A stretch of 10,036 bases of DNA. Origin: Gammaproteobacteria bacterium (GTDB lineage: Bacteria > Pseudomonadota > Gammaproteobacteria > Steroidobacterales > Steroidobacteraceae). A model generated the notes under the pieces. It saw only the letters and a program-made list of their open reading frames with translations. It had not been told where the DNA came from and made no database searches. The position numbers and the translations under genes are program-made. Below, one piece after another: positions 1 through 10,036 of this stretch (the first letter of the stretch is position 1; each line of letters opens with the position of its first letter). The stretch spans positions 1 to 10,036 of the forward strand of contig JAQGOE010000098.1 of the NCBI GenBank assembly GCA_028293725.1. The letters run 5' to 3'.

Positions 1-163
1 GGGCGGTCAAAACATAACCTCATTCACGGTGTTTTCTCACCCTGCCAACAGAAATGCGAATTAGACTCAATCAACCAGTCAGGTTCCCAGGTCAAGGTCG
101 TTCGAATTTGGTTTTCACACGGCCTCGGTCGCGACGAGTCGGTGGAGGCGGTACCGTCCGCCA
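1..163. other. Left-edge stretch without a recognisable gene
   Basis: No open frame of convincing protein character and no RNA gene is visible on either strand. The stretch precedes the small membrane-protein gene at 278 and could be the degraded end of a gene lying outside the window, but nothing in it supports a specific assignment. Confidence 0.4.
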
Positions 164-277
164 GTGCTTCTTCCCGGCCGGGAGCGGACCCTAAAATTCA
201 CGCGATTAGGTTCCAGAAAGCAGTCATTCGTTACCTACGTTATGCTGAGCCCCATACATGACGAGGCCAGTGAAGCG

Positions 278-517
278 ATGACTTTCAGCATATTTGAGTG
301 GCGATGCCCGAACATCCGCGGGGAGAGTCTGTTTACGGATATCCTTCTAGTTGCCCTCGGCGTACTGTTTGCCGCCGGTAGTTTCGCTCGAAACTTGAAG
401 TTGGGCCGAAATCCTGGAACCGCCATCCCGGCTCCACCTCACGCCAGAGTCATTATTTTCATGCTCGGATGCTTAATGGTATTTGAAGGAACGAAATTGA
501 CATTATTGTGCAGGTGA
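278..517 (+). CDS. Small putative two-helix membrane protein
   Basis: This is a hypothetical protein of 79 residues that I do not recognise. Two hydrophobic segments are visible, roughly residues 19-36 (around LLVALGVLFAAGS) and 56-72 (around VIIFMLGCLMVFEG), joined by a short basic, proline-rich loop (PGTAIPAPPHAR), as in a small inner-membrane protein. The frame is open from a GTG at 164 and also contains an ATG at 242. I prefer the ATG at 278 because GAGG and GTGAAG lie just upstream, whereas the other two starts have no Shine-Dalgarno-like sequence. The 3' end overlaps the 3' end of the minus-strand membrane gene (439-777), and two genuine genes are unlikely to share that stretch, so one of the two tails is probably artefactual. 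Its hydrophobic organisation makes this frame the better candidate. Confidence 0.5.
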   Translation: MTFSIFEWRCPNIRGESLFTDILLVALGVLFAAGSFARNLKLGRNPGTAIPAPPHARVIIFMLGCLMVFEGTKLTLLCR

Positions 518-777
518 GGAGCTTCTCGTGTAAGTGGGCCACATAACAGTTGGTTCGAAGGGCCAGCAATCGTCACCCCAACCCAGCCGACCGCGAGAAT
601 CATAAGGCCCGGCTGATACGCCATTTTCGAAAAAGCGACAAGGTCGCTATCCCAAAGAGAAAGGCGGTCGTAATGCAATAGACGACGGTGAAACCACACG
701 CTCAGCAGCCCCATCAGCACTGCGAGGGCTGCGCCAAACCAAACCACGGAGCGTTTCAGGTGAATGAACACGGCCAC
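439..777 (-). CDS. Putative small membrane protein, 3' end probably altered
   Basis: This frame encodes about 112 residues starting at GTG (complement of 775-777). The first two thirds contain two hydrophobic helices, around VVWFGAALAVLMGLLSVWF and GLMILAVGWVGVTIAG, separated by a polar loop rich in Arg, His and Asp. After about residue 73 the sequence becomes polar and irregular and runs antisense to the better-looking plus-strand gene at 278-517. I therefore suspect that the genuine protein ended near 540 and that the present tail was acquired at a recombination junction. The start codon follows directly on the stop codon of the upstream minus-strand gene (778-1065), an arrangement typical of translational coupling in an operon. 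I cannot assign a family or function. Confidence 0.5.
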   Translation of the reverse strand: MAVFIHLKRSVVWFGAALAVLMGLLSVWFHRRLLHYDRLSLWDSDLVAFSKMAYQPGLMILAVGWVGVTIAGPSNQLLCGPLTREAPHLHNNVNFVPSNTIKHPSMKIMTLA

Positions 778-1065
778 TTATGCGAAATTGAATATTCCGA
801 GTAGGGCGAGCAGTAGGATAACCAAGAAGATTCCCGCAGCCACCTTAGCCACCGTTCGGGGCGGACTATACGATCCACCCGCAACGGCGGTCCGTGCAAG
901 GATAATGTGTGCGAGCGGAGCAACGGCAATCATTAGGGCGCCGGTCAATAGATACAGGGCGGTCAACCCGGCAAGTCCCGGAAGCAGAAAACCGAGGACG
1001 AAGGGAAACGCGAGACCGGCGCAAACCCATCCGGCAATGATCATTGGCACGGAAGGTCGGGCCAC
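778..1065 (-). CDS. Putative small integral membrane protein
   Basis: This gene encodes a 95-residue, very hydrophobic protein that I do not recognise. Three membrane segments are apparent: residues 8-28 (IIAGWVCAGLAFPFVLGF), about 30-57 (LAGLTALYLLTG onward to ILAR), and 74-93 near the C-terminus (AAGIFLVILLLALLGIF). A short basic loop with SYSPPR separates the last two. The GTG start is supported by GAGGA about 8 bases upstream on the minus strand (complement of 1074-1078). Its TAA stop is directly followed by the GTG of the next minus-strand gene, so the two are probably co-transcribed. They may once have formed a cluster with the broken membrane-protein gene at 1275-1518, which has the same orientation. 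No catalytic motif is visible. Confidence 0.6.
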   Translation of the reverse strand: MARPSVPMIIAGWVCAGLAFPFVLGFLLPGLAGLTALYLLTGALMIAVAPLAHIILARTAVAGGSYSPPRTVAKVAAGIFLVILLLALLGIFNFA

Positions 1066-1274
1066 GCTACTCGTCCTCTAACCTCGAAATTACGGCTGCG
1101 CAATTTTGCGCCGACACCGTCCCAAAGCCAATGACCGGTTTCGCACTTGCGAACGACCGCTTCGGCGGACACGACTTGTCCGCTTCGGGTCGATTTGGAG
1201 CGTAGCGTTTTGAGCGCTTTCGGCCAGAAGCGGCCGGCCGCTGCTATGAGCCGGAGGTTTAGGGGCTTGCCCAA
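1066..1274. other. Non-coding stretch with palindromes
   Basis: This gap lies between two minus-strand membrane-protein genes. Frames crossing it are arginine-rich and of low complexity, typical of shadow frames in GC-rich DNA. It holds a perfect 14-bp palindrome, AGCGGCCGGCCGCT (1229-1242), and a close inverted repeat GCGCAA-TT-TTGCGC (1098-1111). It resembles degenerate intergenic repeat sequence more than a gene. Confidence 0.35.
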
Positions 1275-1518
1275 TCACCAGATTTGTTTGCTCCACGGAA
1301 GAGGGGTGAGATCATCGTACAGCCCCGCAGCTTTTCTCTTTCGGTATACGTCCTGAGCAATCACACCCACCATGGACGAGCACAGAAAGCCGATAGCAGC
1401 GATGCTGTCCCCACGGCGCCCCTGTCTCAAGAAACAGCGGAATCCACAGCAGAGCTAGCGCCCATGTACCTATCACGATTATTTGGGTCTTCGGTCGGCC
1501 AATGGAAATCAGTGCCAT
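1275..1518 (-). pseudogene. Frameshifted small two-helix membrane protein
   Basis: The minus strand starts at ATG (complement of 1516-1518) with a normal membrane-protein beginning, including the segment IIVIGTWALALLWIPLFLE. After GAPWG the frame turns into cysteine- and arginine-rich nonsense. Moving to the next frame at the C run at 1409-1412 restores a convincing continuation: DSIAAIGFLCSSMVGVIAQD as a second helix, then the basic stretch VYRKRKAAG, then LYDDLTPLPW and a stop at 1275-1277. The joined product would be about 81 residues with two membrane helices. One inserted base or two lost bases explains the break. A sequencing error in the homopolymer is possible. I do not recognise the family. 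Confidence 0.55.
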
Positions 1519-1564
1519 AAACCCGAATGTACTCCCGTCCGGAAGCGGACGCTGCCGACCGGCA

Positions 1565-1798
1565 ATGGGGCGCGAAACCGATCATTTTTCTCTGGGCGGT
1601 CGGAGTTCGGCGGCTCGCTCGGCTCTCGCGTGCAGCTCGGATCCCGTAACGCTGAACGCCTATCCGTCGCTCATAGAGCGCGGGTTGCGACAGCCGACCT
1701 TGAGCATGCTGTTGCGGCTCGCCTATGCGATCGATACGGAACCGACAAAACTGGTCGAAGACACGTTAGCAAATCTGCAGGTTGAGTCATTAGGCTGA
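1565..1798 (+). pseudogene. Degraded XRE-family HTH regulator
   Basis: The C-terminal half is a recognisable XRE-type helix-turn-helix tail, YPSLIERGLRQPTLSMLLRL followed by an Ala/Asp/Glu-containing helix and LVEDTL. This matches the conserved Y.S.IERG.R.PTL..LLRLA pattern. The N-terminal half expected for this fold survives only in another frame: EFGGSL (from 1603) resembles the usual FG..LR beginning. Between that phenylalanine (1606) and the tyrosine of YPSLIERG (1661) there are 55 bases where an intact domain has about 84. I infer an internal deletion of about 29 bases with a frame change, which removes the turn and the recognition helix's lead-in. It lies divergent from the broken membrane-protein gene and may once have regulated neighbouring mobile-element genes. 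A short expressed fragment cannot be excluded. Confidence 0.5.
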
Positions 1799-1970
1799 AG
1801 GCTGCGCATCCAGTCTCATACCGTCGCACGTAGCTGCAAAGTGTAGTAATCCGTCGCAGCACGAAATTTCGCATCCATTCGACACAAGCGCGTTTGTTGG
1901 CTATCTCGGCGGAAATGACCACTCGCCGGAACCTGGTCGATCGTGGATCATCGCACCCGTAAGGATTACG
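1799..1970. other. Intergenic stretch upstream of the integration module
   Basis: No gene is supported here. The stretch contains a 10-bp palindrome CGAAATTTCG (1863-1872), a repeated octamer CCGTCGCA, and an inverted pair GCTGC/GCAGC about 20 bases apart. It separates the decayed regulator from the small gene preceding the recombinase and probably carries the promoter of that unit. I could not fix clear -35 and -10 boxes. Confidence 0.3.
1961..1965 (+). promoter_or_regulatory. Ribosome binding site deciding the GTG start at 1971
   Basis: AAGGA sits 5 bases before the GTG at 1971. The internal ATG at 1998 has no comparable site, so translation most likely begins at the GTG. Confidence 0.5.
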
Positions 1971-2243
1971 GTGGCTTTCCGCGCGCGATCACGATTCATG
2001 AAACCGGAAGTGGAATTCCTTGTGGGGCTTGTAGCTCGCTCTGTCTACGAACGCTGGAAAGCTGGCGAGCTGTCGCCCAACGTCACGCCTGGGCATCCGG
2101 CTGGTGCAAAAAAGGATCGGATACCAAGTACAGCGCTTGTGGCATATGATCCATCCAGCAACATACCTGCAATGGAGTTGTTGGGATGCACATCTACTCG
2201 TACGCCCGGTACAGCACGGACCGGAAAACAGAAGCCTCCATAG
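1971..2243 (+). CDS. Small hypothetical protein preceding the serine recombinase
   Basis: This frame encodes a 90-residue protein that I do not recognise. The N-terminal half looks like a genuine soluble alpha-helical domain (MKPEVEFLVGLVARSVYERW followed by KAGEL), while the second half is proline-, threonine- and lysine-rich. Translation is supported by AAGGA 5 bases before the GTG start. The 3' end overlaps the recombinase start at 2186 by 58 bases in another frame. That overlap is longer than expected, so the last 20 residues may result from a small frameshift or from loss of the original stop near 2170. Its place directly upstream of a large serine recombinase would suit an accessory or directionality protein, but this is inference from position only. 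Confidence 0.45.
   Translation: MAFRARSRFMKPEVEFLVGLVARSVYERWKAGELSPNVTPGHPAGAKKDRIPSTALVAYDPSSNIPAMELLGCTSTRTPGTARTGKQKPP
2174..2177 (+). promoter_or_regulatory. Ribosome binding site of the serine recombinase
   Basis: GGAG ends 8 bases before the ATG at 2186. This supports 2186 as the true recombinase start even though the long open frame only begins at 2260. Confidence 0.55.
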
Positions 2244-3741
2244 TTGATCAGCAGCGAAGATGTCACAATATGCCGACTCGCGCGGCTGGCGGATGACGGC
2301 GGATCTCAAAGACGAAGGCATTTCCGGGGCGGCGCTCGGCAACCGACCCGGATTCCAACGAGCAATGTCAGCGGTTCAGGCCGGCGACGTTCTGCTGGTT
2401 GCCGACCTTACCCGTTTGTCTCGAAGCCAGGAGCTTGCGCCACTCCTTGACCGACTACGATTTCGCGGTGTCCGTGTGATTGGCGTGCTCGACGGGTTTG
2501 ATAGCGACAGTCCACAAGCTCCAATGCAAGCTGGGCTCTCGGGCCTCATGTCGGACGAACTTCGTGCCAGCATTCGTGCGCGCACTCACTCGGCGCTGCA
2601 GATGCGTGCCCAGAACAATCGCTCAACTGGCGGGAAAGTATACGGCTACGACTCCGCCGGTCAGGTCATCGATGCGCAGGCGGGCATCGTGCAGCAGATT
2701 TTCGAGCGCACTGCCAACGGCGAGTGTATGCGGACAGTCGCGAACGACTTGAACGCGAGCGGTGTGCCGTCACCTGGTGCAATGTTGAAGCGCAGCGAGC
2801 GACGCCGCGATGGGCGCTGGCTCATTTCGACATTAAACGCGATGTTGCAAAACGAGCGGTATGTCGGCCGACTCGTCTGGAACAAGTCGCAATGGGTAAA
2901 GGACCCCGACTCGGGCCGTCGCGTTAGGCGCGAACGGCCAGAAGCCGAGTGGACGACTACGGAATGCCCAACCCTGGTCGACGCGGCGATTTGGGCGAAA
3001 GTGCAAGTGCGGATGAGGGAGCGGGCGACTGGTCACAAAGCACGCAGCGGAGTGCGCCGGTATTTGCTGTCCGGTCTGCTGATTTGCGATCGTTGTGGGT
3101 GTCCAATGGTCATTCGCGGGACTGACGGTTCCCACTATGGATGCAGCACCTACATGCAGGGTGGTGAGTCGGCATGCTCGATGGGTCTTCATCTGCGACG
3201 AAAGGTCGGGGAGCAGGTCGTACTTGGTCCGGTACAGAGTCAATTGCTTGCGCCCGAGGCGGTCGAGCGTTCTTGCGAGCTCATTCGAGGATGGGCGCGG
3301 AGTGAAAGCGCGCACGTCGAGCAGGGGACGAACCCATCGATTGCGGCTATCGACGCGGAGATCGCCGATCTCGAAGCGCTGATCGAGGCGCGACCGGCTC
3401 GCGCAGCGACAATGCGTCCTTTGATCGAGGAGCTACGCGCGAAGAAGGCGAACCTGCGTCGGGCGGCTCTACGAAAGGCACAGTCCAAGGGTGACGCGGA
3501 CTTACCAGCGGCAGACGCTTATCGTGCGGCAATCGCGGATCTATCAGCGACGCTGCTGACCGGCTCAAACGTCGAGGCGGCCAGATCCGCACTACGCAGT
3601 CTAGTCGGCAGCGTTTCAGTCTTCGCAGAAGGTAGGAAGCTCTACGGGCGTATCGGACTCAATCCCGCGCAGCTCTTGCGGACGAGTAACCCAGGCTTCA
3701 TTGAATCGATTGGTAGCGGGGGGCCGCTACGAGCTTTATAG
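2186..3741 (+). pseudogene. Large serine recombinase, frameshifted near the N-terminus
   Basis: This gene encoded a site-specific DNA recombinase of the large serine (resolvase/invertase) family, which integrates and excises mobile elements. The N-terminal frame from ATG 2186 carries the catalytic-serine motif YARYSTDRK (Ser10) and SIVDQQRRC, then closes at 2296. The rest lies in the frame open from 2260: DEGISG, the catalytic-arginine segment DLTRLSRS, a recombinase DNA-binding domain (N..GVPSPG, then YVGRLVWNK), a zinc ribbon (CDRCGCPM, then YGCSTY and a later Cys), and a charged coiled coil. Typically two residues separate the Cys and Tyr of the C..YA motif; here five bases lie between them, so one base is missing near 2264-2268. 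No slippery heptamer is seen, and restart at 2260 would lack the catalytic serine. The enzyme is therefore probably inactive unless this is a sequencing error. Its last codons lie inside the putative att repeat. Confidence 0.85.
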
Positions 3742-3807
3742 CAACTACCCCCTTGAGATTCAGGCAGTTGCCGCGAGCGTCGCCCCAGCATGAGACATAA
3801 TGCAGGA
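3711..3807 (+). repeat. Attachment-site-like direct repeat, copy A
   Basis: The first 70 bases match 9401-9470 at 64 positions, and looser similarity with a 3-base gap continues to 3807. The 20 bases immediately upstream match at only about 6 positions, so similarity begins abruptly at TGGTAGCGGGGG. The copy spans the last codons and stop of the recombinase and the 3' flank. It contains a hairpin, GTAGCGG-GGGG-CCGCTAC (3713-3730). An abrupt edge, position at a recombinase 3' end and two direct copies flanking cargo are what an att site of a serine-recombinase element would show. Confidence 0.6.
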
Positions 3808-3843
3808 TCAGCGTCGAGCCGCCGGTTGCAGCTCGATGCAAAA

Positions 3844-3847
3844 AAGG
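3844..3847 (+). promoter_or_regulatory. Ribosome binding site deciding the start at 3857
   Basis: AAGG lies 9 bases before the ATG at 3857. The frame is also open from an ATG at 3800, but that start has no such site and would add residues before the conserved winged helix. Confidence 0.45.
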
Positions 3848-3854
3848 CGACAAT

Positions 3855-3873
3855 TGATGCTAAATATGCATCA
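3855..3873 (+). promoter_or_regulatory. Dyad over the antitoxin-like gene start, possible operator
   Basis: TGATGC and GCATCA form a perfect 6-bp inverted repeat around a 7-base AT-only spacer, and the dyad covers both candidate start codons (3857 and 3866). The gene product has a winged helix, so autoregulation by binding here is plausible but unproven. Confidence 0.35.
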
Positions 3874-4471
3874 GTCTCTATCCGCCGTCCTGTTTCCCGG
3901 CTATCGTCGCCGAGTGCTCGGAATGCTCCTTCTGCATCCCGAGGAATCCCTTCATGGTCGCGAGATTGCCCGAAGGACAGGATTGCCCGCCGGGACGCTG
4001 ACACGCGAGCTGAAACGTTTGGCTGAAGTTGGGCTGCTCAACCGCCAGCGACGGGGTAACCAGCTTATCTATAGCGCAAACCGAGACTCTCCTATCTTCG
4101 AGGAGCTAGCCGGGATTTTGCGCAAAACGTCCGGGCTGGCCGACGTGGTTGCGGAGGCACTCGAGCCGCTGACAGATCGGGTCGACGTGGCATTTATTTT
4201 CGGCTCAGTTGCGCGTGCGGCCGAGACACAGGGAAGCGACGTCGACGTGTTGATCATCGGATCGATGGACTTCGGAACCGTCCTCGATGCGCTGCATACG
4301 GCGCAGCAACGACTGGCGAGGGACATCAACCCGAAGGTGTTTTCCGCGCGCGAATGGAAGGCGAAGCTAAGTGAGAGGGATCCGTTCGTGTTGGATGTAC
4401 TCTCGAAGAAGAAAATTTTCCTGGTAGGGGACGAGAATGGGCTTGCAGAACTTGGTCGGCATCAGTCTTGA
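3857..4471 (+). CDS. Winged-helix / MNT-type nucleotidyltransferase (antitoxin-like)
   Basis: The product has 204 residues. Residues about 8-75 form a winged helix-turn-helix (LHGREIARRTGLPAGTLTRE, then a recognition helix and wing). Residues about 105-190 form a minimal nucleotidyltransferase domain with the signature FGSVARAAETQGSDVDVLII, where G116-S117 and D128/D130 are the expected nucleotide- and metal-binding residues; INPKVFS follows in the place usual for this family. Proteins of this layout commonly precede a HEPN gene. In the characterised MntA/HepT pairs the nucleotidyltransferase neutralises the HEPN toxin by adding AMP. The next gene overlaps this one by 35 bases and is such a HEPN protein, so the two are probably translated together. 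All catalytic residues appear intact. Start chosen at 3857 for its AAGG site. Autoregulation through the dyad at the start codon is possible. Confidence 0.85.
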   Translation: MLNMHQSLSAVLFPGYRRRVLGMLLLHPEESLHGREIARRTGLPAGTLTRELKRLAEVGLLNRQRRGNQLIYSANRDSPIFEELAGILRKTSGLADVVAEALEPLTDRVDVAFIFGSVARAAETQGSDVDVLIIGSMDFGTVLDALHTAQQRLARDINPKVFSAREWKAKLSERDPFVLDVLSKKKIFLVGDENGLAELGRHQS

Positions 4472-4871
4472 GCAGGTCACGCCTGTCAAAGAAACGGTTA
4501 AGCGCCTGCTCGACGCTGCGCGGCATATCGCCGACGCGAAGGTTCAGGCGATAAGTGCTGAGACCCGCTTTTCGAGCGCGTACACAGCGATCCGGATGCT
4601 CGCTGATGTGGGCTTGCATGCTCACGGCTATCGAACGCTTACCAGCAGGCCCGGGCACCATCAGACGGCAATTCAGACGCTGCCGACGACGCTGGGGACC
4701 GACTCTCAGACGCTCGTCCGGTTGGATCACTTGCGCAAGCAGCGGAATCTTACGGAATACACAGGGGACCTCATCCCAGAATCGGCGGTCACCGAATGTG
4801 TGGCCCAGGCGCAGTCGCTGTACGCGGTGACTCACGGTTGGCTGAAAGAAAACAAGCGCGACCTGTTGTGA
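4437..4871 (+). CDS. HEPN-domain protein, partner of the nucleotidyltransferase
   Basis: This 144-residue, mainly alpha-helical protein has the shape of a HEPN domain. Landmarks are the helix ISAETRFSSAYTAIRMLA (about 39-56), the conserved segment GYRTLTSRPGHHQT (64-77) and LRKQRNLTEYTGD (99-111). The last is the HEPN signature region: R103 and N104 are present, but the histidine of the RX4-6H ribonuclease motif is replaced by Y108, as in the RN...Y type of HEPN family I recall. By analogy it is the toxin-like partner of the preceding nucleotidyltransferase, possibly an RNase whose signature tyrosine is AMP-modified. Without the histidine, RNase activity is uncertain. The ATG overlaps the upstream gene by 35 bases and is preceded by GGGGA. 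A substrate-binding, non-toxic HEPN role is the main alternative. Confidence 0.8.
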   Translation: MGLQNLVGISLEQVTPVKETVKRLLDAARHIADAKVQAISAETRFSSAYTAIRMLADVGLHAHGYRTLTSRPGHHQTAIQTLPTTLGTDSQTLVRLDHLRKQRNLTEYTGDLIPESAVTECVAQAQSLYAVTHGWLKENKRDLL

Positions 4872-4900
4872 TTCAGTAGCGCAGGCGAGCAGGGCGGGTA

Positions 4901-4917
4901 GCTACCGGAACGGTAGC
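4901..4917 (+). other. Hairpin between the HEPN and HAF-repeat genes
   Basis: GCTACCG-GAA-CGGTAGC is a perfect 7-bp stem with a 3-base loop, 29 bases after the HEPN stop codon. The overlapping 10-bp palindrome GGTAGCTACC (4897-4906) offers an alternative fold. No T run follows, so it is not a standard intrinsic terminator. It ends 4 bases before the AAGG site of the next gene and could modulate its translation. Confidence 0.45.
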
Positions 4918-4933
4918 GATTAAGGTAATGCGA

Positions 4934-6580
4934 ATGAACCTCTATCAGAGTACAAGAATTGTGTGTCTATGTCTTGCCCTGACCATCACGCTGCCGCCGT
5001 GCAGGGCATTGTCGCAGGCATCCAATCGCGCCCGGAGCGTCTCGGCGACTCATATTGAGATTGGAGATTCGTTGGCGTTTGTTCAACATGCATTGGTGGC
5101 CTCGGATCCGCAAGCGCATGTGGCAAGTGTCGACCAACCCGTCAACGGACAGATACGTCTCGGTGATCGCGGGATCTGGGTCTTTTTCGACGATATGAAC
5201 CACGTCCGACAGTATCGCTTTGATGCTCCATTCGGTGGGGATATCCATGGCGCGCGAATCGGTGCCTCGATGGAACAGATTCATGGGGTCTTGGGGAGTG
5301 CGGTGAAAGAGTTTCCCTTGGCTCCCGGCACGACGGCCTATCTTTATCGCATCGATTCGGCGACGACAATCCAGTGCGAATTCGTGAATCAGAAGTTGCA
5401 AACCATTCGATTACTGAGCGGCTTTGCGAATTTTTCAGAATTCAACACTAATGACGGTGCGGTGTCGGGGCTCCGCCAACAAGCCACTACGGCCGGCGCT
5501 CAGCAGAATGACGTTCCCAATACCAGCATTCCGGGTGCCTCTTCTGCCCCGCTGCTCAATATGGACCACTCGGCCACGTTCAAGGAGCCAACGACACCGA
5601 TCATTTTGGACCTGGGGCGGCTGAGCGGTGGAGGGAATAGTTCCTACGCATCGGCGATTAGCGCTGACGGTACGGTGGTTGTCGGGTCAGCAAATCACGG
5701 GAACTATGGTCAGGTCGCATTTAAATGGAAACCTGACACCGGCATGGTCTCTCTTGATCAGTCATTCTTCATCCGACATTCTGCGTACGCCACCGCCGTC
5801 AACTATAACGGGTCCGTGATTGTCGGCGCGTGGGACTCCGCGGGTAGTGGTCTAGATCGCGCGTTCAGGTGGACCAAAGAGACTGGAATGTTTACGTTGC
5901 CGGAGTCAAATCGCTCGCGCGCGAACGCGGTTAGCATGGACGGCCAAGTAGTCGTTGGACTCTCAGGTGGTGGAGCATTCCGATGGACGGAGCGGGAGGG
6001 GATGGTCGCGCTGCCCGGGCGAACCCTGTTCGGCGCTACGGCTGTGAGTGCAGACGGGCGGGCGGTATACGGCGATGAAGAGGGCGACGAAGACGTCCAC
6101 GTTATCCGCTGGGACGTCGATGGGCGTATCACCCGTTACCCCAATCCGGAGGGGGTGAGCGCGTCGTTCGTAAGAGCCGTGACAACCGACGGCTCGATCG
6201 CAGTTGGCGAACAGCACGTGAAGATGGCCGGTGGTCGCCTCCAAATGAGGGCGGTCGTGTGGTACTCGCCCACGAATATTGTGCAACTCGGATTCTTTCG
6301 GAGCGGCAGCTACTCGAAGGCGACTGCGGTTAATTCCGATGGAACAGTGATTGTTGGCGAGGCTGATCGCGCCGCCGTGTTTCGCTGGACACAGGCGACG
6401 GGCATGGAGTCCCTCACTGAATGGATCGAAAAGGCCGGTGGAAGTCTTCCGTCCTCGTCCCCCAATAGCGCCCAGGGCGTCAGTGGCGACGGATCCAAGG
6501 TGGTGGGAGGCTTGCAGAACGGAAATCCGTACGTTGCCTTCGGTCCTGCACGCGTAAAGAACCCCGGGCCGCAGCCCTGA
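4934..6580 (+). CDS. Secreted HAF-repeat protein with BamE-like N-terminal region
   Basis: The product has 548 residues. Residues 1-27 resemble a Sec signal peptide (basic start, hydrophobic LCLALTITLP, then ALSQA); the Cys in LPPC does not fit a lipobox. Residues about 38-165 look like two consecutive BamE/SmpA-type units: IEIGDSLAFVQHAL...WVFFDDMNHVRQYRF and ARIGASMEQIHGVLGS...FVNQKLQTIRL. A Ser/Thr/Gln-rich linker follows. From about 210 to 535 there are seven HAF-type repeats of pattern A(V/I)S.DG.VVVG plus AFRW.. (AISADGTVVVGSA, AVNYNGSVIVGAW, AVSMDGQVVVGLS and so on), expected to fold as a beta-propeller. It is probably periplasmic or extracellular, function unknown. It follows the HEPN gene by 62 bases. 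AAGG ends 8 bases before ATG 4934, which I prefer to ATG 4928, where the spacing would be only 2. Confidence 0.8.
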   Translation: MNLYQSTRIVCLCLALTITLPPCRALSQASNRARSVSATHIEIGDSLAFVQHALVASDPQAHVASVDQPVNGQIRLGDRGIWVFFDDMNHVRQYRFDAPFGGDIHGARIGASMEQIHGVLGSAVKEFPLAPGTTAYLYRIDSATTIQCEFVNQKLQTIRLLSGFANFSEFNTNDGAVSGLRQQATTAGAQQNDVPNTSIPGASSAPLLNMDHSATFKEPTTPIILDLGRLSGGGNSSYASAISADGTVVVGSANHGNYGQVAFKWKPDTGMVSLDQSFFIRHSAYATAVNYNGSVIVGAWDSAGSGLDRAFRWTKETGMFTLPESNRSRANAVSMDGQVVVGLSGGGAFRWTEREGMVALPGRTLFGATAVSADGRAVYGDEEGDEDVHVIRWDVDGRITRYPNPEGVSASFVRAVTTDGSIAVGEQHVKMAGGRLQMRAVVWYSPTNIVQLGFFRSGSYSKATAVNSDGTVIVGEADRAAVFRWTQATGMESLTEWIEKAGGSLPSSSPNSAQGVSGDGSKVVGGLQNGNPYVAFGPARVKNPGPQP

Positions 6581-6726
6581 GCGGCGTCGAGCTGAAAGGT
6601 CCCTGAATCGAACGCTGTCCTGCTGTGTCCGACTGGCTCGCGGACTGCGCATGGCCGCAGGGGTAGAATGAGCGTCGAATACTCAATCCGGCGGTGCATC
6701 TCCATGCTGAGTGAAATTGCTTCGGA
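6581..6726. other. Intergenic stretch after the HAF-repeat gene
   Basis: No gene is supported. A short stem CTGCG/CGCAG occurs near 6640-6660 without a T run, so no convincing terminator is seen. GAAAGGTCCCT at 6594-6604 recurs exactly at 6855-6865. Confidence 0.3.
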
Positions 6727-7153
6727 ATGAATTTCGATAAAGTACAAGTCGCGCTGAGCTGAACCTGCCTTTTATTGGAACGGCGGCGAGCGCGCCAAAT
6801 GCTCGCTTTACTGGCCGACCGCGGATGGTTTTGGCTGAAAGGACTATGAGGAACGAAAGGTCCCTTCAGCTGACCAACTGCGGAAGTTTTTGCGAAAGGA
6901 AGGTACGGAGCTTTCAGCGAAAGTCTCGAAGCAACTGAGACGGTCTGTCGGGCGGAAAAAGACGGTAAAACGGAAAAAGCGCGGTAGATGGAAGAGCGGA
7001 CCCACAGGCGTCCCGGCAGTCGCGACCAACGCGCTCCAGAACACTCCGAGCAATGAAGCGGTGAGGGGTGAGTTGCCACGGGAGGTGACCGGTGATTCGA
7101 TCACATCCAACTCATGCTCCCGCCGAGACGTGAGCGCCGCGCCCGGAGTTTGA
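6727..7153 (+). pseudogene. Decayed basic protein gene (tentative)
   Basis: A short frame from ATG 6727 (MNFDKVQVAL) closes at once. The neighbouring frame continues with AEPAFYWNGGERAKCSLYWP, meets a TGA at 6836-6838, then resumes in the same frame with KDYEERKVPSADQLRKFLRK and a strongly basic region (GRKKTVKRKKRGRWK) until a stop at 7151-7153. The charged, helix-like composition after the TGA looks more protein-like than a chance frame. One frameshift and one nonsense change would explain the pattern. A TTG at 6890 could start an 87-residue remnant. I recognise no family. The alternative is non-coding repeat DNA, supported by the inverted repeat across the TGA. Confidence 0.3.
6834..6870 (+). 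repeat. Imperfect inverted repeat
   Basis: GCTGAAAGGACT (6834-6845) pairs with GGTCCCTTCAGC (6859-6870) across a 13-base loop, with ten Watson-Crick pairs, one G-T pair and one mismatch. It covers the TGA that interrupts the surrounding frame. Parts of it (GCTGAAAGG, and GAAAGGTCCCT just inside) also occur at 6591-6604. Confidence 0.45.
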
Positions 7154-7192
7154 CAAAGAACGGCATTCTAGCAATGATTGAGACGGCGCTCC

Positions 7193-7921
7193 ATGTTCCA
7201 ATTCGCTGTAAAACTGTTCAAGTCAGCTGCAGCCGACGCTCTGCGCGGCATGGGCACTACCGCACTTGCGGTAAGTGTTGGGCTCAGCGTTTGGGCCGTG
7301 TCGCAGGTCGAAGTCTTCCGGATCGGAGGCGTGCGTGCCGCTCTGGCGAATTGGGACTACGGACTGCTGTGGGTCGTGGTCGCTTGGCTGGCGGTGCTGG
7401 CTTTCTGTGCGCGCAAACGCTTCCATTCGCTCCTACGCGAACACCATCGCGTGTTCCGCTTGGTTGCGTTGAATCAGGACCAAGTGTCAGACCCCGATCG
7501 CATTTCGATTTGGTGCGCTTTGGAATTCTGCAGAGATCTCGGACCGGTTGACCTTGTTGTGCGTGTTACAACGTTACTTACCTCCGCCCCAGCTACACGT
7601 GTCGTCCACACCGAGAGGGTCGAAAGGGTCGCGAAAAATGAGATAAAGCGTCTCGCGCTAGGTAGTCTCAGAGTCGCAAACCCGCACCGACCGGCATATC
7701 ATTCGATTTGGGGAAGTGAGCCGGGCACGGAAGACTTGAAGCGAGGACAGGTGTCGATCCTTTCCGACTCAAAGCACATAATCGACATTTCGGTAAGCCG
7801 GCAAAACTACCGATGCTACATTGAGTTTGTAACAGCGCCCCCTGGAGCATTGAGCGCGGCAATGTATATGACGGATGAGGACCGCTCTTCTTGGATTCTC
7901 AAACTTCCGGAGATCGGCTAG
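7193..7921 (+). CDS. Unrecognised protein with two N-terminal membrane helices
   Basis: The product has 242 residues and I do not recognise its family. A short amphipathic start is followed by two likely membrane helices, residues about 21-40 (GTTALAVSVGLSVWAVSQV) and 57-73 (YGLLWVVVAWLAVLAF). Then comes the basic segment RKRFHSLLREHHR and a soluble C-terminal domain of about 160 residues with mixed strands and helices, presumably cytoplasmic. No catalytic motif stands out. The frame is open from a TTG at 7178; I chose ATG 7193 because a GAGA lies 9 bases upstream. A TIR-domain gene follows after 75 bases in the same orientation. This arrangement suggests a membrane effector or anchor working with the TIR enzyme, which is inference from context and common practice in defence loci, not from homology. 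Confidence 0.65.
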   Translation: MFQFAVKLFKSAAADALRGMGTTALAVSVGLSVWAVSQVEVFRIGGVRAALANWDYGLLWVVVAWLAVLAFCARKRFHSLLREHHRVFRLVALNQDQVSDPDRISIWCALEFCRDLGPVDLVVRVTTLLTSAPATRVVHTERVERVAKNEIKRLALGSLRVANPHRPAYHSIWGSEPGTEDLKRGQVSILSDSKHIIDISVSRQNYRCYIEFVTAPPGALSAAMYMTDEDRSSWILKLPEIG

Positions 7922-7981
7922 CACCCCCGGGGCACCGTACTGTTGACAGTGTTCGCGCTCGGGCCCGCCTGAGTGATTGGG

Positions 7982-7987
7982 TATAAT
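7982..7987 (+). promoter_or_regulatory. Perfect -10 box just before the TIR gene
   Basis: TATAAT ends 9 bases before the ATG at 7997, so transcription from it would start only about 1-5 bases before the coding region and give a nearly leaderless message. No good -35 box lies at 16-18 bases. A perfect TTGACA (7943-7948) exists, but 33 bases away. Confidence 0.35.
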
Positions 7988-7996
7988 AGGCCACCT

Positions 7997-8791
7997 ATGA
8001 ACACGCAGACACCGAAAATCTTTGTCTCCCACATCCACGAAGAGGCGGTTTTGGCGTCGGCCCTCAAGGAGGGACTAGAGGATGCATTTGCCGGACGCAT
8101 TTCTGTCTTTGTTAGTAGTGACAAGCGGGATAACCCTGGCGGCGATGAGTGGTCGGAAAAGGTTAGGGGGGAGCTTCAAGACCCCAGAACGTGCATGGTG
8201 ATTTCGCTAATCAGCCTCACATCCGTGAAGCGGCCGTGGATCTCGATTGAACTCGGCGCCGCCTGGGCGCGCAATCTTGCACTATTTCCACTCTGTCACT
8301 CAGGAAGTTCGCCGGGCATGCTACCCCGACCGCTAAGCGATTTTGGTGGCGCCGCGCTGCATTCCGATGAGGCGGTTGATCGGTTGATCAGTGCGGCGGA
8401 GAACGCAGTGGGACACAAGGTGTCTCGAAGGTGGCCGCGTGCCGATTTTCTGACGGAGCTTCGCACTGCGGCAGATCGATCGACGACCGAGCCAACTCCG
8501 GAGCCGGCGTCCGTTCTAAAAGCGTTTGAATCCGGACGCGTATCGGAACAGGTCACTATCCTGCAACTGCTGTCGCAACTGCAAGACCAGCGCATCGAAG
8601 ATATAACCTGCCATGACGGCGCGACGATGCTCAGGATGTCGCCGTCGATCTTCCTCTATCACGCAACTCAACTGGTAAATGAAGGTCTAGCGCGGGATTC
8701 GTTGTACATGGATGAAAGACACTACAGCATCACGCCGGGCGGCGTAGGTTGGTTGATGGAAAGCGGCCAAATGCCCGTAACCGAAAAGTAA
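7997..8791 (+). CDS. TIR-domain protein with C-terminal winged-helix-like region
   Basis: The product has 264 residues. Residues about 6-100 form a bacterial TIR domain: KIFVSHIHEEAVLASALKEG, then VFVSSD..DNPGGDEWSEKV, the strand CMVISLIS, and WISIELGAAW. The last contains the WxxxE motif W81...E85, whose glutamate is catalytic in TIR NADases. PLCHSG...LPRPL (98-113) is a typical extension of this family. A linker rich in Thr, Pro and Glu (about 160-172) leads to a C-terminal domain (about 185-258) that looks like a winged helix. Bacterial TIR proteins commonly act in phage defence by degrading NAD+ or making cyclic ADP-ribose signals. The frame is also open from GTG 7973, but ATG 7997 begins directly before the domain. 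Neither start has a clear Shine-Dalgarno. The preceding membrane-protein gene may be its partner. Confidence 0.85.
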   Translation: MNTQTPKIFVSHIHEEAVLASALKEGLEDAFAGRISVFVSSDKRDNPGGDEWSEKVRGELQDPRTCMVISLISLTSVKRPWISIELGAAWARNLALFPLCHSGSSPGMLPRPLSDFGGAALHSDEAVDRLISAAENAVGHKVSRRWPRADFLTELRTAADRSTTEPTPEPASVLKAFESGRVSEQVTILQLLSQLQDQRIEDITCHDGATMLRMSPSIFLYHATQLVNEGLARDSLYMDERHYSITPGGVGWLMESGQMPVTEK

Positions 8792-8825
8792 AGGGGGCTC
8801 CTCACTCTCACAGTGTCCCTTTTCG

Positions 8826-9431
8826 GGCGAGTACAGCTGCTCGAGCTACCACAACGGGCGCGCGTGCGATAACCACATCCGGGTGAACCGGCTCAGCCTG
8901 GAAGACAACATCATCGGCCCGATCCGTACCGCCGTACTCGCGCCGGAGCGCATTGTGCAGATGGCGAAAGAGATGCAGGCGTACTACGCCGAGCAACTCC
9001 AGGGGATGCAGGCGCGCGGGACTGAAGCACCGCGTGAACTGCAGGAGCTGAACGCCCGGATACAGCGCCTGCGGGAGCGGCTCAAGCATGGTGACGCTGA
9101 CATGCTGCCGGATGAGATCCAGGCCGCTATCGATCGGGCCGAGGTGAAGCGCTTGGAGCTCGATTCGCAGCAGCCGGGGAAGGGCACTGCCAAAGTACTC
9201 TCGATCCTGCCCAAGGCCCCCGAGATGTTTCGCCGGCAGATCGCGGATGGCTTGAACGGGAATGAGCGGGAAGCACTGAAGTCCCGCGTTATCCTGCGCG
9301 AAATGTGCGGCGGTCGGATCGACCTGAAGCGAGAAGGCGAGGAGCTTTGGGCGGAGTATGGCCTGCAGCCCGCGGCCTTACTCCGAATCGTAGGGAATCG
9401 TGGTAGCGGGGGGCTGCTACGAGCTTTATAG
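8826..9431 (+). pseudogene. C-terminal remnant of a second large serine recombinase
   Basis: This frame begins inside the zinc ribbon of a large serine recombinase (GEYSCSSYHNGRACDN, with the second cysteine pair) and continues through RVNRLSLEDNI, a long charged coiled coil (about 8940-9170) and the C-terminal segment, ending GSGGLLRAL. The catalytic domain, with its serine and arginines, and the DNA-binding recombinase domain are absent. The TIR gene stops at 8791, so the deletion junction must lie within about 35 bases. Apart from the shared last nine codons it is only distantly similar to the recombinase at 2186-3741, so it is a separate lineage and not a recent duplicate. A 182-residue fragment from GTG 8883 could still be translated but could not recombine DNA. 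Confidence 0.8.
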
Positions 9432-9500
9432 CAATTACCCCCTTCAGATTCAGGCGGTTGCAGCGAGTGTCACCACGCCTGCATGAGCCACGGTGCAGGA
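9401..9500 (+). repeat. Attachment-site-like direct repeat, copy B
   Basis: Partner of copy A at 3711-3807, with 64 of the first 70 positions identical. It covers the last codons and stop of the recombinase remnant and about 70 bases beyond. The hairpin is retained: the change of CCGCTAC to CTGCTAC still pairs through a G-T pair. It would mark the right end of the 5.7-kb cargo segment. Confidence 0.6.
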
Positions 9501-9666
9501 GCGAGCGGCAGGCTGGCCAATACCTCAGGCTAGGCCGACTTTCACCGAAAACCGTGTTCCGGCAAAGCTCAGCCAATCGGTACTATTAAAAGCAACTTGA
9601 ACGGGGGAACATCGCGCGCTGCTGCATCGGCCGGGCGGCGCTCACGGTTTGACCGGCTTGGAACGC
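9501..9666. other. Intergenic stretch between att copy B and the reductase gene
   Basis: No gene, clear promoter or terminator is supported. The reductase frame is open from 9601, but the residues encoded before about 9679 do not resemble the start of that family. Confidence 0.3.
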
Positions 9667-9670
9667 GAGG
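9667..9670 (+). promoter_or_regulatory. Ribosome binding site facing an ATA codon
   Basis: GAGG ends 8 bases before the ATA at 9679, exactly where this reductase family would be expected to begin. The start codon appears to have changed from ATG to ATA. Confidence 0.4.
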
Positions 9671-9678
9671 TTGTAGTC

Positions 9679-10036
9679 ATAGCCGAGGCCCAGCGTTACA
9701 ACATTCTCATCCTTGGCAGCGGTGAGGCGGGAAAATACCTCGCCTGGACATTCGCCAAGGCCGGGCGCCGCGTTGCTCTAGTTGAGCGCGGCCTGATCGG
9801 TGGCTCGTGTCCAAACATCGCCTGCCTGCCGAGCAAGAACGTCATCCACAGTGCACGGGTTGCGGCGCTGTGCCGCCGGAGCCGCGAGTTTGGCATCGGC
9901 ACCGGCGATATACATGTGGACATGAAGGGCGTGCGCCAGCACAAGCGAGCGATGGTCGATGGCCTGATTGCCACTCATCGCGAGCGATACGAGGCAAGTG
10001 GGACGGAGCTGATTCTCGGAGAGGCACGCTTCATTG
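9679..10036 (+). CDS. Mercuric-reductase/dihydrolipoamide-dehydrogenase-like flavoenzyme, 3' end outside window
   Basis: This is a class I pyridine-nucleotide-disulfide oxidoreductase. It has the FAD-binding Rossmann motif ILILGSGEAGKYLAW, the acidic end of the second strand (ALVERG), and GGSCPNIACLPSKN, which holds the redox-active CxxxxC disulfide and the following SK. The enzyme would use NAD(P)H and FAD to reduce a disulfide or metal substrate. Members with the GEAGKYLAW and CPNIACLPSKN wording are often annotated as mercuric reductases, but no N-terminal metal-binding domain is present and the specific substrate is unknown. The window ends after about 119 codons. No ATG or GTG lies in frame between 9601 and the domain; TTG at 9649 or 9658 are alternatives without a ribosome binding site. 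I place the original start at ATA 9679. Confidence 0.85.
   Translation, partial: MAEAQRYNILILGSGEAGKYLAWTFAKAGRRVALVERGLIGGSCPNIACLPSKNVIHSARVAALCRRSREFGIGTGDIHVDMKGVRQHKRAMVDGLIATHRERYEASGTELILGEARFI

Follow-up and report, generated by a model that had tools for sequence, protein, structure and literature searches.

The staphylococcal cassette chromosome (SCC) elements are inserted at the 3' end of rlmH by large serine recombinases of the Ccr type, and they form tandem composite islands that include recombinase-less members. Chromosomal integrons are same-strand arrays of small recombinase-less cassettes, with toxin–antitoxin genes among them and an order that varies between genomes, while the tycheposons of Prochlorococcus are tRNA-anchored cargo elements with tyrosine recombinases. 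Integrative and conjugative elements (ICEs) and integrative and mobilizable elements (IMEs) accrete in tandem by site-specific insertion at one attachment (att) site, alongside cis-mobilizable elements (CIMEs), recombinase-less units that keep attL and attR, and site-specific IMEs with serine recombinases are described as interrupting genes (PMC5704250). The TIGER/Islander resource maps precise islands in tRNA genes and resolves tandem arrays, requires an integrase gene and excludes islands smaller than 2 kb (PMC12424338). Here we analyze 10,036 nucleotides from a Gammaproteobacteria bacterium of the Steroidobacteraceae (assembly GCA_028293725.1, contig JAQGOE010000098.1, positions 1 to 10,036 of the forward strand), the whole of which we call the window. 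Very probably it is part of an array in which mobile units have accumulated in tandem at the 3' terminus of an initiator tRNA gene.

The strongest direct repeat in the window, from a repeat search and base-by-base comparison, is a block of 74 nt at positions 3711–3784 and 9401–9474 in which 67 of the 74 bases (91%) are identical; the runner-up repeat family is 26 nt long with 77% identity. To the left of the two copies identity is at chance level (6 of the 20 nearest bases, 12 of 40), and to the right 15 of 40 bases agree. The original prediction, made from the letters of the window, had described a near-identical block (64 of 70 bases) in two serine recombinase genes, starting abruptly after sequence of chance identity, and both points are borne out.

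All window features given here lie on the plus strand. The gene rec1 (2186–3741) would be the large serine recombinase of the left-hand unit; it matches the Pfam domains Resolvase, Recombinase and Zn_ribbon_recom and scores 781.6 bits against a profile of the family. Its N-terminal sequence (MHIYSYARYST...) runs from 2186 in one frame and its body from 2248/2260 to 3741 in another, so that the reading frame is either broken in the window or misread. The second gene, rec2 (8793–9431), is the C-terminal remnant of another, distant serine recombinase (59.6 bits against the family profile), in which Pfam found none of the three recombinase domains, and its 3' end would form the right end of the 5.7-kb unit between the repeat copies. 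The two share 29% identity over the aligned part. They are thus as distantly related as had been claimed. An uninterrupted reading frame is found in neither, although relatives of at least 500 amino acids exist.

The first 12 bases of the block, TGGTAGCGGGGG, hereafter the core, lie at 3711–3722 and 9401–9412. In related genomes this sequence is the antisense of the last 12 nt, CCA included, of a tRNA-Met(CAU) gene, and it is also the DNA that encodes the residues GSGG in relatives of the recombinase. ARAGORN placed a tRNA-Met(cat) antisense exactly over the core in three arrays of related genomes (G041 C29, G047 C51 and G035 C3). In this tRNA the first acceptor pair is a T:T mismatch, and the anticodon stem contains three G-C pairs. 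Both features are hallmarks of initiator tRNAs, and by them the tRNA is of initiator type. The repeat is therefore a tRNA gene end over its 12-bp core, recognized through the tRNA-Met of relatives, and the initiator tRNA gene, overlooked in the earlier reading of the sequence, is the original target.

The position of the tRNA relative to the recombinase genes was compared at 35 genomic loci where a recombinase matched (5 found at E 1e-60 among 369 genomes, and 30 of the 40 places that 34 of 396 genomes yielded at E 1e-40). At 27 of them a tRNA-Met(cat) lies antisense across the recombinase stop codon; at 17 the reading frame yields GSGGRI or something close to it, and at 10 it yields VAGAGFEPATFGL (the FEPATFGL frame) or, again, a near variant. 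The two tails are thus one tRNA read in two ways. Among the remaining eight loci, one has a tRNA-Pro(cgg) in the same geometry, one has the tRNA-Met beyond the gene, and six gave no tRNA call, one of these having an N in the tRNA. The tRNA-Pro case (L097, G644 C31) is a family member with the tail GRGDRI whose stop falls within the antisense tRNA, as in the tRNA-Met cases, so the family may target other tRNA genes too.

A recombinase gene that abuts the tRNA ends in GSGGRI or in VAGAGFEPATFGL; where another unit follows, translation continues past GSGG into the left end of that unit, giving PLRAL and LLRAL in the window. A search with rec1 found 386 homologues, and among the 120 listed 31 have the terminal residues GSGGRI, in 67 GSGG is followed by a different sequence, VAGAGFEPATFGL is the tail of 2, another 2 break off in VAGA, 2 are variants and 16 have no such tail, some of them being fragments. 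The closest relative among those listed, P0001, is 92% identical to rec1, and the alignment stops exactly after GSGG, where P0001 reads RI-stop and rec1 reads PLRAL. The proposal that the att site supplies the tail GSGG.LRAL accordingly holds for GSGG, which comes from the core, and probably not for (P/L)LRAL-stop, which comes from the roughly 60 bp beyond it. The most plausible reading of those 60 bp is that the next unit starts there with its left end, and the two stretches would be alike because both following units share one left-end type. Tandem integration at one att site, also proposed earlier, is supported by the relatives, although the site shared is 12 bp and not the whole block. A tree of 95 recombinases, built from sequence cut before GSGG, requires 14 or more switches in the tail label (RI or other), 11 of which are forced by well-supported branches; the tail thus tracks the neighbour in part, and not descent alone.

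Relatives on viral contigs carry the same core. Rec1 alone as query recovered no viral relatives, but an alignment query did, and at the 38 viral loci the gene tail contains the exact core in 25, a core with one mismatch in 1 and with at least two mismatches in 6; it was not found in 6, four of which are cut by the contig end. A tblastn search with the relative P0015 against plasmids and phages yielded distant recombinases only, each listed best place falling below 60% identity. One could suppose that the block is simply a coding and terminator feature conserved at the C-terminal end of these recombinases, with no attachment site involved, since GSGG stands near the end of 98 of the 120 listed homologues. 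Yet the 12 bases are unchanged in those 25 of 38 diverged viral genes even though GSGG could be encoded otherwise, the sequence past the core varies with the neighbour, the same bases recur at array joints that have no recombinase and in the tRNA itself, and the second frame yields FEPATFGL. We give this explanation almost no credence.

The block itself was also used as a query. A fixed pattern of 33 bases from it matched one genome contig and no viral contig, blastn against plasmids and phages gave no match, and in a set of 99 genomes, made up of one block-bearing metagenome-assembled genome (MAG) and its relatives, 8 had matches (E 0.001 or better) at up to five places. That two similar blocks lie within one window would also agree with a segmental duplication of the 70-bp block, or gene conversion, between the recombinase genes; in other genomes, however, the block stands beside different left flanks, and we regard such a copying event as very improbable. 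A lone copy in a Gammaproteobacteria MAG (L001) is followed by an open reading frame (ORF; 364–663, minus strand) in which a nucleotidyltransferase-like stretch, LAILFGSCVRGDHRG, was noticed by eye. The gene order there parallels that after the block in the window.

Symmetry around the core was scored for the 26 viral loci that have no more than one core mismatch, except five look-alikes and one locus reading GSGGRI at a contig end; the 20 scored represent 13 distinct attP sites. In all 13 the best dyad centre falls at core +10.5, between the 11th and 12th bases, with a mean symmetry of 0.599 as compared with a mean of 0.401 and a maximum of 0.494 for re-paired arms (300 trials). This axis places the predicted crossover at the last GG of the core, which in the window would be 3721–3722 and 9411–9412. 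An integrated element in a related genome (G625) has two cores 10.6 kb apart and a recombinase that ends at the tRNA. Its outer arms placed side by side score 0.58 at the expected centre, the best of any centre, while at that centre its attL scores 0.37 and its attR 0.32; the attB sites scored range from 0.32 to 0.37.

We propose that a large serine recombinase would join the attP of a circular unit to the 3' end of the tRNA gene, probably with crossover at the last GG of TGGTAGCGGGGG. The attP would carry TGGTAGCGGG to the left of the crossover, whereby the tRNA 3' end, CCA included, would be rebuilt and a second copy of the core left at the far end of the inserted unit. Since GG is not its own complement, all units should face one way. 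The next unit may enter the same core, giving core–unit–core–unit chains that end at the tRNA, and because the recombinase gene crosses the core its last residues would be set by the neighbour: RI-stop or VAGAGFEPATFGL-stop at the tRNA, and a different tail before another unit. Units that lack a recombinase would retain the core and could carry cargo.

The window agrees with part of such an array, comprising three units or more: that of rec1, the 5.7-kb unit, and one starting at 9401. By analogy with the viral attP sites, the 3' end of rec1 at 3671–3710 would serve the left-hand unit as its right-end half-site (P arm). The putative left-end arm of the 5.7-kb unit (P' half-site plus flank, 3723–3784) is of a type common to array units of related genomes, and by repeat comparison the arm of the next unit (9413–9474) is of the same type. 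The recombinase behind this left-arm type was sought by arm pairing among 143 left arms, and no partner was clear. The rec1 right arm pairs at 12 of 17 positions with the left arm of a viral element (L068), which exceeds the pairing of any arm with the window's left-arm type. With up to one mismatch allowed, no third copy of the core occurs in the window, and the sole two-mismatch match falls within the nucleotidyltransferase gene; no left end was therefore located for the rec1 unit.

The original prediction expected single uninterrupted copies of the block at empty sites in related genomes; empty sites with one copy of the core were found for the G625 element. With DNA to the left of the G625 element as query, 53 of 60 genomes matched and 24 loci, G625 included, were examined. 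In 6 of the 23 relatives the site is empty: the flank runs on into one core and the tRNA, at most 170 bp from their predicted position.

Multiple copies of the core occur in related genomes. The exact core is present in 167 of 217 genomes of one family, where one copy is expected from the tRNA, and eleven of the 217 have at least five copies; a reversed control pattern reached five or more in two. The clear arrays are tandem with all units on the same strand. Cores are found on G041 C29 at 1362 (one mismatch), 4387, 5320, 6518 (one mismatch), 6576, 7606, 8677 and 11851 (tRNA), on G047 C51 at 324, 3909, 9836, 11769 and 20123 (tRNA), and on G035 C3 (turned) at 2483, 4840 and 11366 (tRNA). The array contigs examined hold 56 core-to-core units longer than 300 bp, some of which are bounded by one-mismatch cores, so that not all need be real. 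Fifty of them have no ORF that matches the recombinase profile; five have recombinase fragments, the window's rec2 included, and one has a long match (G004 C26). Units of 0.3–1.5 kb number 19.

Units have also changed places. Two units of 5.9 and 3.5 kb stand in opposite order on G041 C128 and G047 C51, with 97.9% and 97.3% identity respectively, while the host DNA beside the tRNA (G041 C29 against G047 C51) is 77–85% identical. The alignment of the 3.5-kb unit begins at the core in both genomes and stops 1 and 57 bp short of the next core, and that of the 5.9-kb unit extends from 32 bp before to 107 bp past its cores. Over the array contigs, 165 alignments gave 294 testable ends, not all of them independent and some representing the host side of the tRNA, and for 44 of these both partners have a core no more than 40 bp away; randomly placed cores gave 0.11 such ends on average and never more than 2 (1000 trials). 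Host DNA was considered as the left boundary of the G041, G047 and G035 arrays and then dropped, as a core precedes the left DNA that these arrays share (G041 C11, G035 C137). Two core-to-core stretches of 58 bp, at 6518–6576 of L021 (G041 C29, the first core having one mismatch) and 1042–1100 of L190 (G041 C182), are perhaps by-products of deletion. Many recombinase-less right ends at joints in G041, G047 and G033 show a motif like ATGCAAA-CGTTGCAAA directly before the core.

Chosen ORFs from the arrays were scanned for family matches. These included MazE/MazF, HigA, a CAAX-type protease, DUF6036 nucleotidyltransferases, Fic/Doc and PIN proteins; the other ORFs scanned had TPR, cytochrome c or PF00144 serine-hydrolase matches, or none. 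Small toxin–antitoxin or Fic units recur core to core in several genomes. One of 1.56 kb, with a SoFic-like protein, occurs core to core in G057 and G015 (92% identical) and in G004 (82% to G057). Its arms pair at the expected axis at 12 of 15 positions in G004 and 10 of 15 in G057. Compared with the intact recombinase element at the tRNA (G004 C26), its left arm agrees at 18 of 20 bases and its right arm at 13 of 20 (G004) or 15 of 20 (G057), with the likeness at chance level beyond about 40 bases. The Fic unit is, by the match of its arms, the best evidence that a recombinase-less unit can move in trans. More generally, 4 of the 56 units reach 9 of 15 arm pairs, which was equalled in 14 of 5000 permutations.

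Several observations weigh against the reading of the window as part of an array at an initiator tRNA, or against parts of it. No tRNA was found in the window, and its membership of a tRNA-ended array is what we infer from relatives. The two window joints are non-symmetric (0.32 and 0.37, the range of the G625 attL and attR scores), and the right and left arms of the 5.7-kb unit score 0.37 together, which is no symmetric attP; the segment does not behave like a single intact element. At other centres the G625 attL reaches 0.53 and its attR 0.47, and the arms of a second integrated element (G037 C134) score 0.42 at the expected centre, tied with another. In 2 of the 23 relatives of G625 the tRNA lies about 1.8 kb further away, and in 15 neither core nor tRNA accompanies the flank within the stretch examined. 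Tail labels are clustered on the recombinase tree, since shuffled labels need 25 changes and none of 500 shuffles was as low as 14. Contigs C29 and C133 of G041 share 96.9% DNA, and this genome seems to be a strain mixture. The expectation that the units' own ends pair better than shuffled ends failed overall: pairing as good arose in 1311 of 2000 permutations for 32 units and in 462 of 5000 for the 56, most of which have no matching ends by this test. Of the four best-pairing units, moreover, two represent a single Fic unit present in two genomes, and a third is bounded by one-mismatch cores, which may be due to chance.

A further point of this kind is a tyrosine integrase in the tRNA-proximal unit of G004 C65 (L207, 10756–12009, minus strand; Pfam Arm-DNA-bind_3 and Phage_integrase), which we would call P4-like. 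P4-type tyrosine integrases also target tRNA 3' ends. An ORF at 11274–12527 (minus strand) on G013 C217 (L210), beside the same tRNA core, has a start near-identical to that of this integrase. With a P4-like enzyme at the same core, a serine recombinase need not be the source of every core copy. It would follow from a stronger form of this argument that P4-type integrases are the main source of the copies and serine recombinases mere passengers, which we consider unlikely, as the exact core sits within the tail of the serine recombinase gene at 25 of 38 viral loci, the tRNA spans its stop codon at 27 of 35 genome loci, and the dyad axis of the serine recombinase attP sites falls within the core.

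Given an array grown by serine recombinases at the initiator tRNA, it can be asked how its small units came about. A weaker form of our explanation is ordinary accretion followed by decay, in which complete islands were inserted serially at the tRNA and lost genes, leaving small units as immobile remnants. The broken frame of rec1 and truncation of rec2 agree with it, as do the two fragments that are all the family profile finds in G041, where it finds none in G047, and the rarity of matching ends. Decay does not readily account for units 97–98% identical in swapped order beside host DNA of 77–85%, for small toxin–antitoxin or Fic units recurring core to core across several genomes, or for one Fic unit with matched ends. 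We consider it a credible account whose chances are somewhat below even. We further hypothesize that the same-strand arrays at the initiator tRNA capture, shuffle and store small recombinase-less units with toxin–antitoxin and defence-like genes, and that resident or phage-borne large serine recombinases sharing the tRNA core may move them in trans, making an integron-like store that is anchored at an essential tRNA and has its 12-base end as joints; we put the odds of this at about even. In the window, too, units without a recombinase may be moved by one produced elsewhere.

As cargo, the 5.7-kb unit (3711–9401) would carry a PDC-M05-like nucleotidyltransferase pair, a HAF-repeat protein and a Toll/interleukin-1 receptor (TIR) protein, with a recombinase remnant only. 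The pair consists of a helix-turn-helix and nucleotidyltransferase protein (3800–4471; PADLOC candidate PDC-M05A, 3.2e-76, also Pfam) and its partner (4437–4871; candidate PDC-M05B, 3.5e-58). It is followed by the 550-aa HAF-repeat protein (4928–6580; NCBIfam TIGR02913), a 247-aa ORF (7178–7921) with no family match in Pfam, PADLOC or NCBIfam, and the TIR-domain protein (7973–8791; Pfam TIR_2, 4.6e-08). A PDC-M05A/B pair in G004 has 78% DNA identity to that of the window (815/1040) and lies about 120 bp before a one-mismatch core, with three exact cores further along the contig, the last at the tRNA. Beyond the second repeat copy begins a gene for a pyridine nucleotide-disulphide oxidoreductase (9649–10036) that runs off the window and may be cargo of the next unit or host DNA. 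Upstream of rec1, window positions 1–2185 hold short ORFs only, with a coding density that is low by eye, and the only one of these scanned (164–514) had no Pfam match.

Our literature search, which covered titles and the starts of abstracts, with most subscription journals and bioRxiv preprints outside its coverage, returned no account of serine-recombinase arrays at an initiator tRNA. Accretion and CIMEs are already known. The sequence relationships described above explain two recurrent recombinase tails, GSGGRI and VAGAGFEPATFGL, as one tRNA in two frames, and they provide a sequence rule for locating attB and attP of this recombinase family. They also point to a store of small defence and toxin–antitoxin cassettes that would be missed by island finders demanding an integrase gene and at least 2 kb.

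Like accreted ICEs, IMEs and CIMEs, the units stand in tandem with a core between them, some without a recombinase (50 of 56). They differ from the serine-recombinase IMEs in that the tRNA 3' end is rebuilt, that 19 of 56 units are 0.3–1.5 kb long, and that units are shuffled between genomes. With SCC they share large serine recombinases, insertion at a gene 3' end, tandem composites and recombinase-less members, but the target here is a tRNA and there are many small units per array; rec1 scores below the cut-off against the Ccr families (NCBIfam CcrB 57.8 bits of 900, CcrC 31.1 of 900). Precise insertion in a tRNA gene and tandem arrays recall the TIGER/Islander islands, although the integrase and 2-kb requirements of that resource would leave out most of the units described here. 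Tycheposons are likewise tRNA-anchored cargo but have tyrosine recombinases. The layout of the arrays, their toxin–antitoxin cargo and their variable order resemble those of chromosomal integrons, whereas the joints are copies of a tRNA 3' end and the linked recombinases are serine enzymes. If recombinase-less units do move in trans, these arrays would be the serine-recombinase counterpart of integron arrays.

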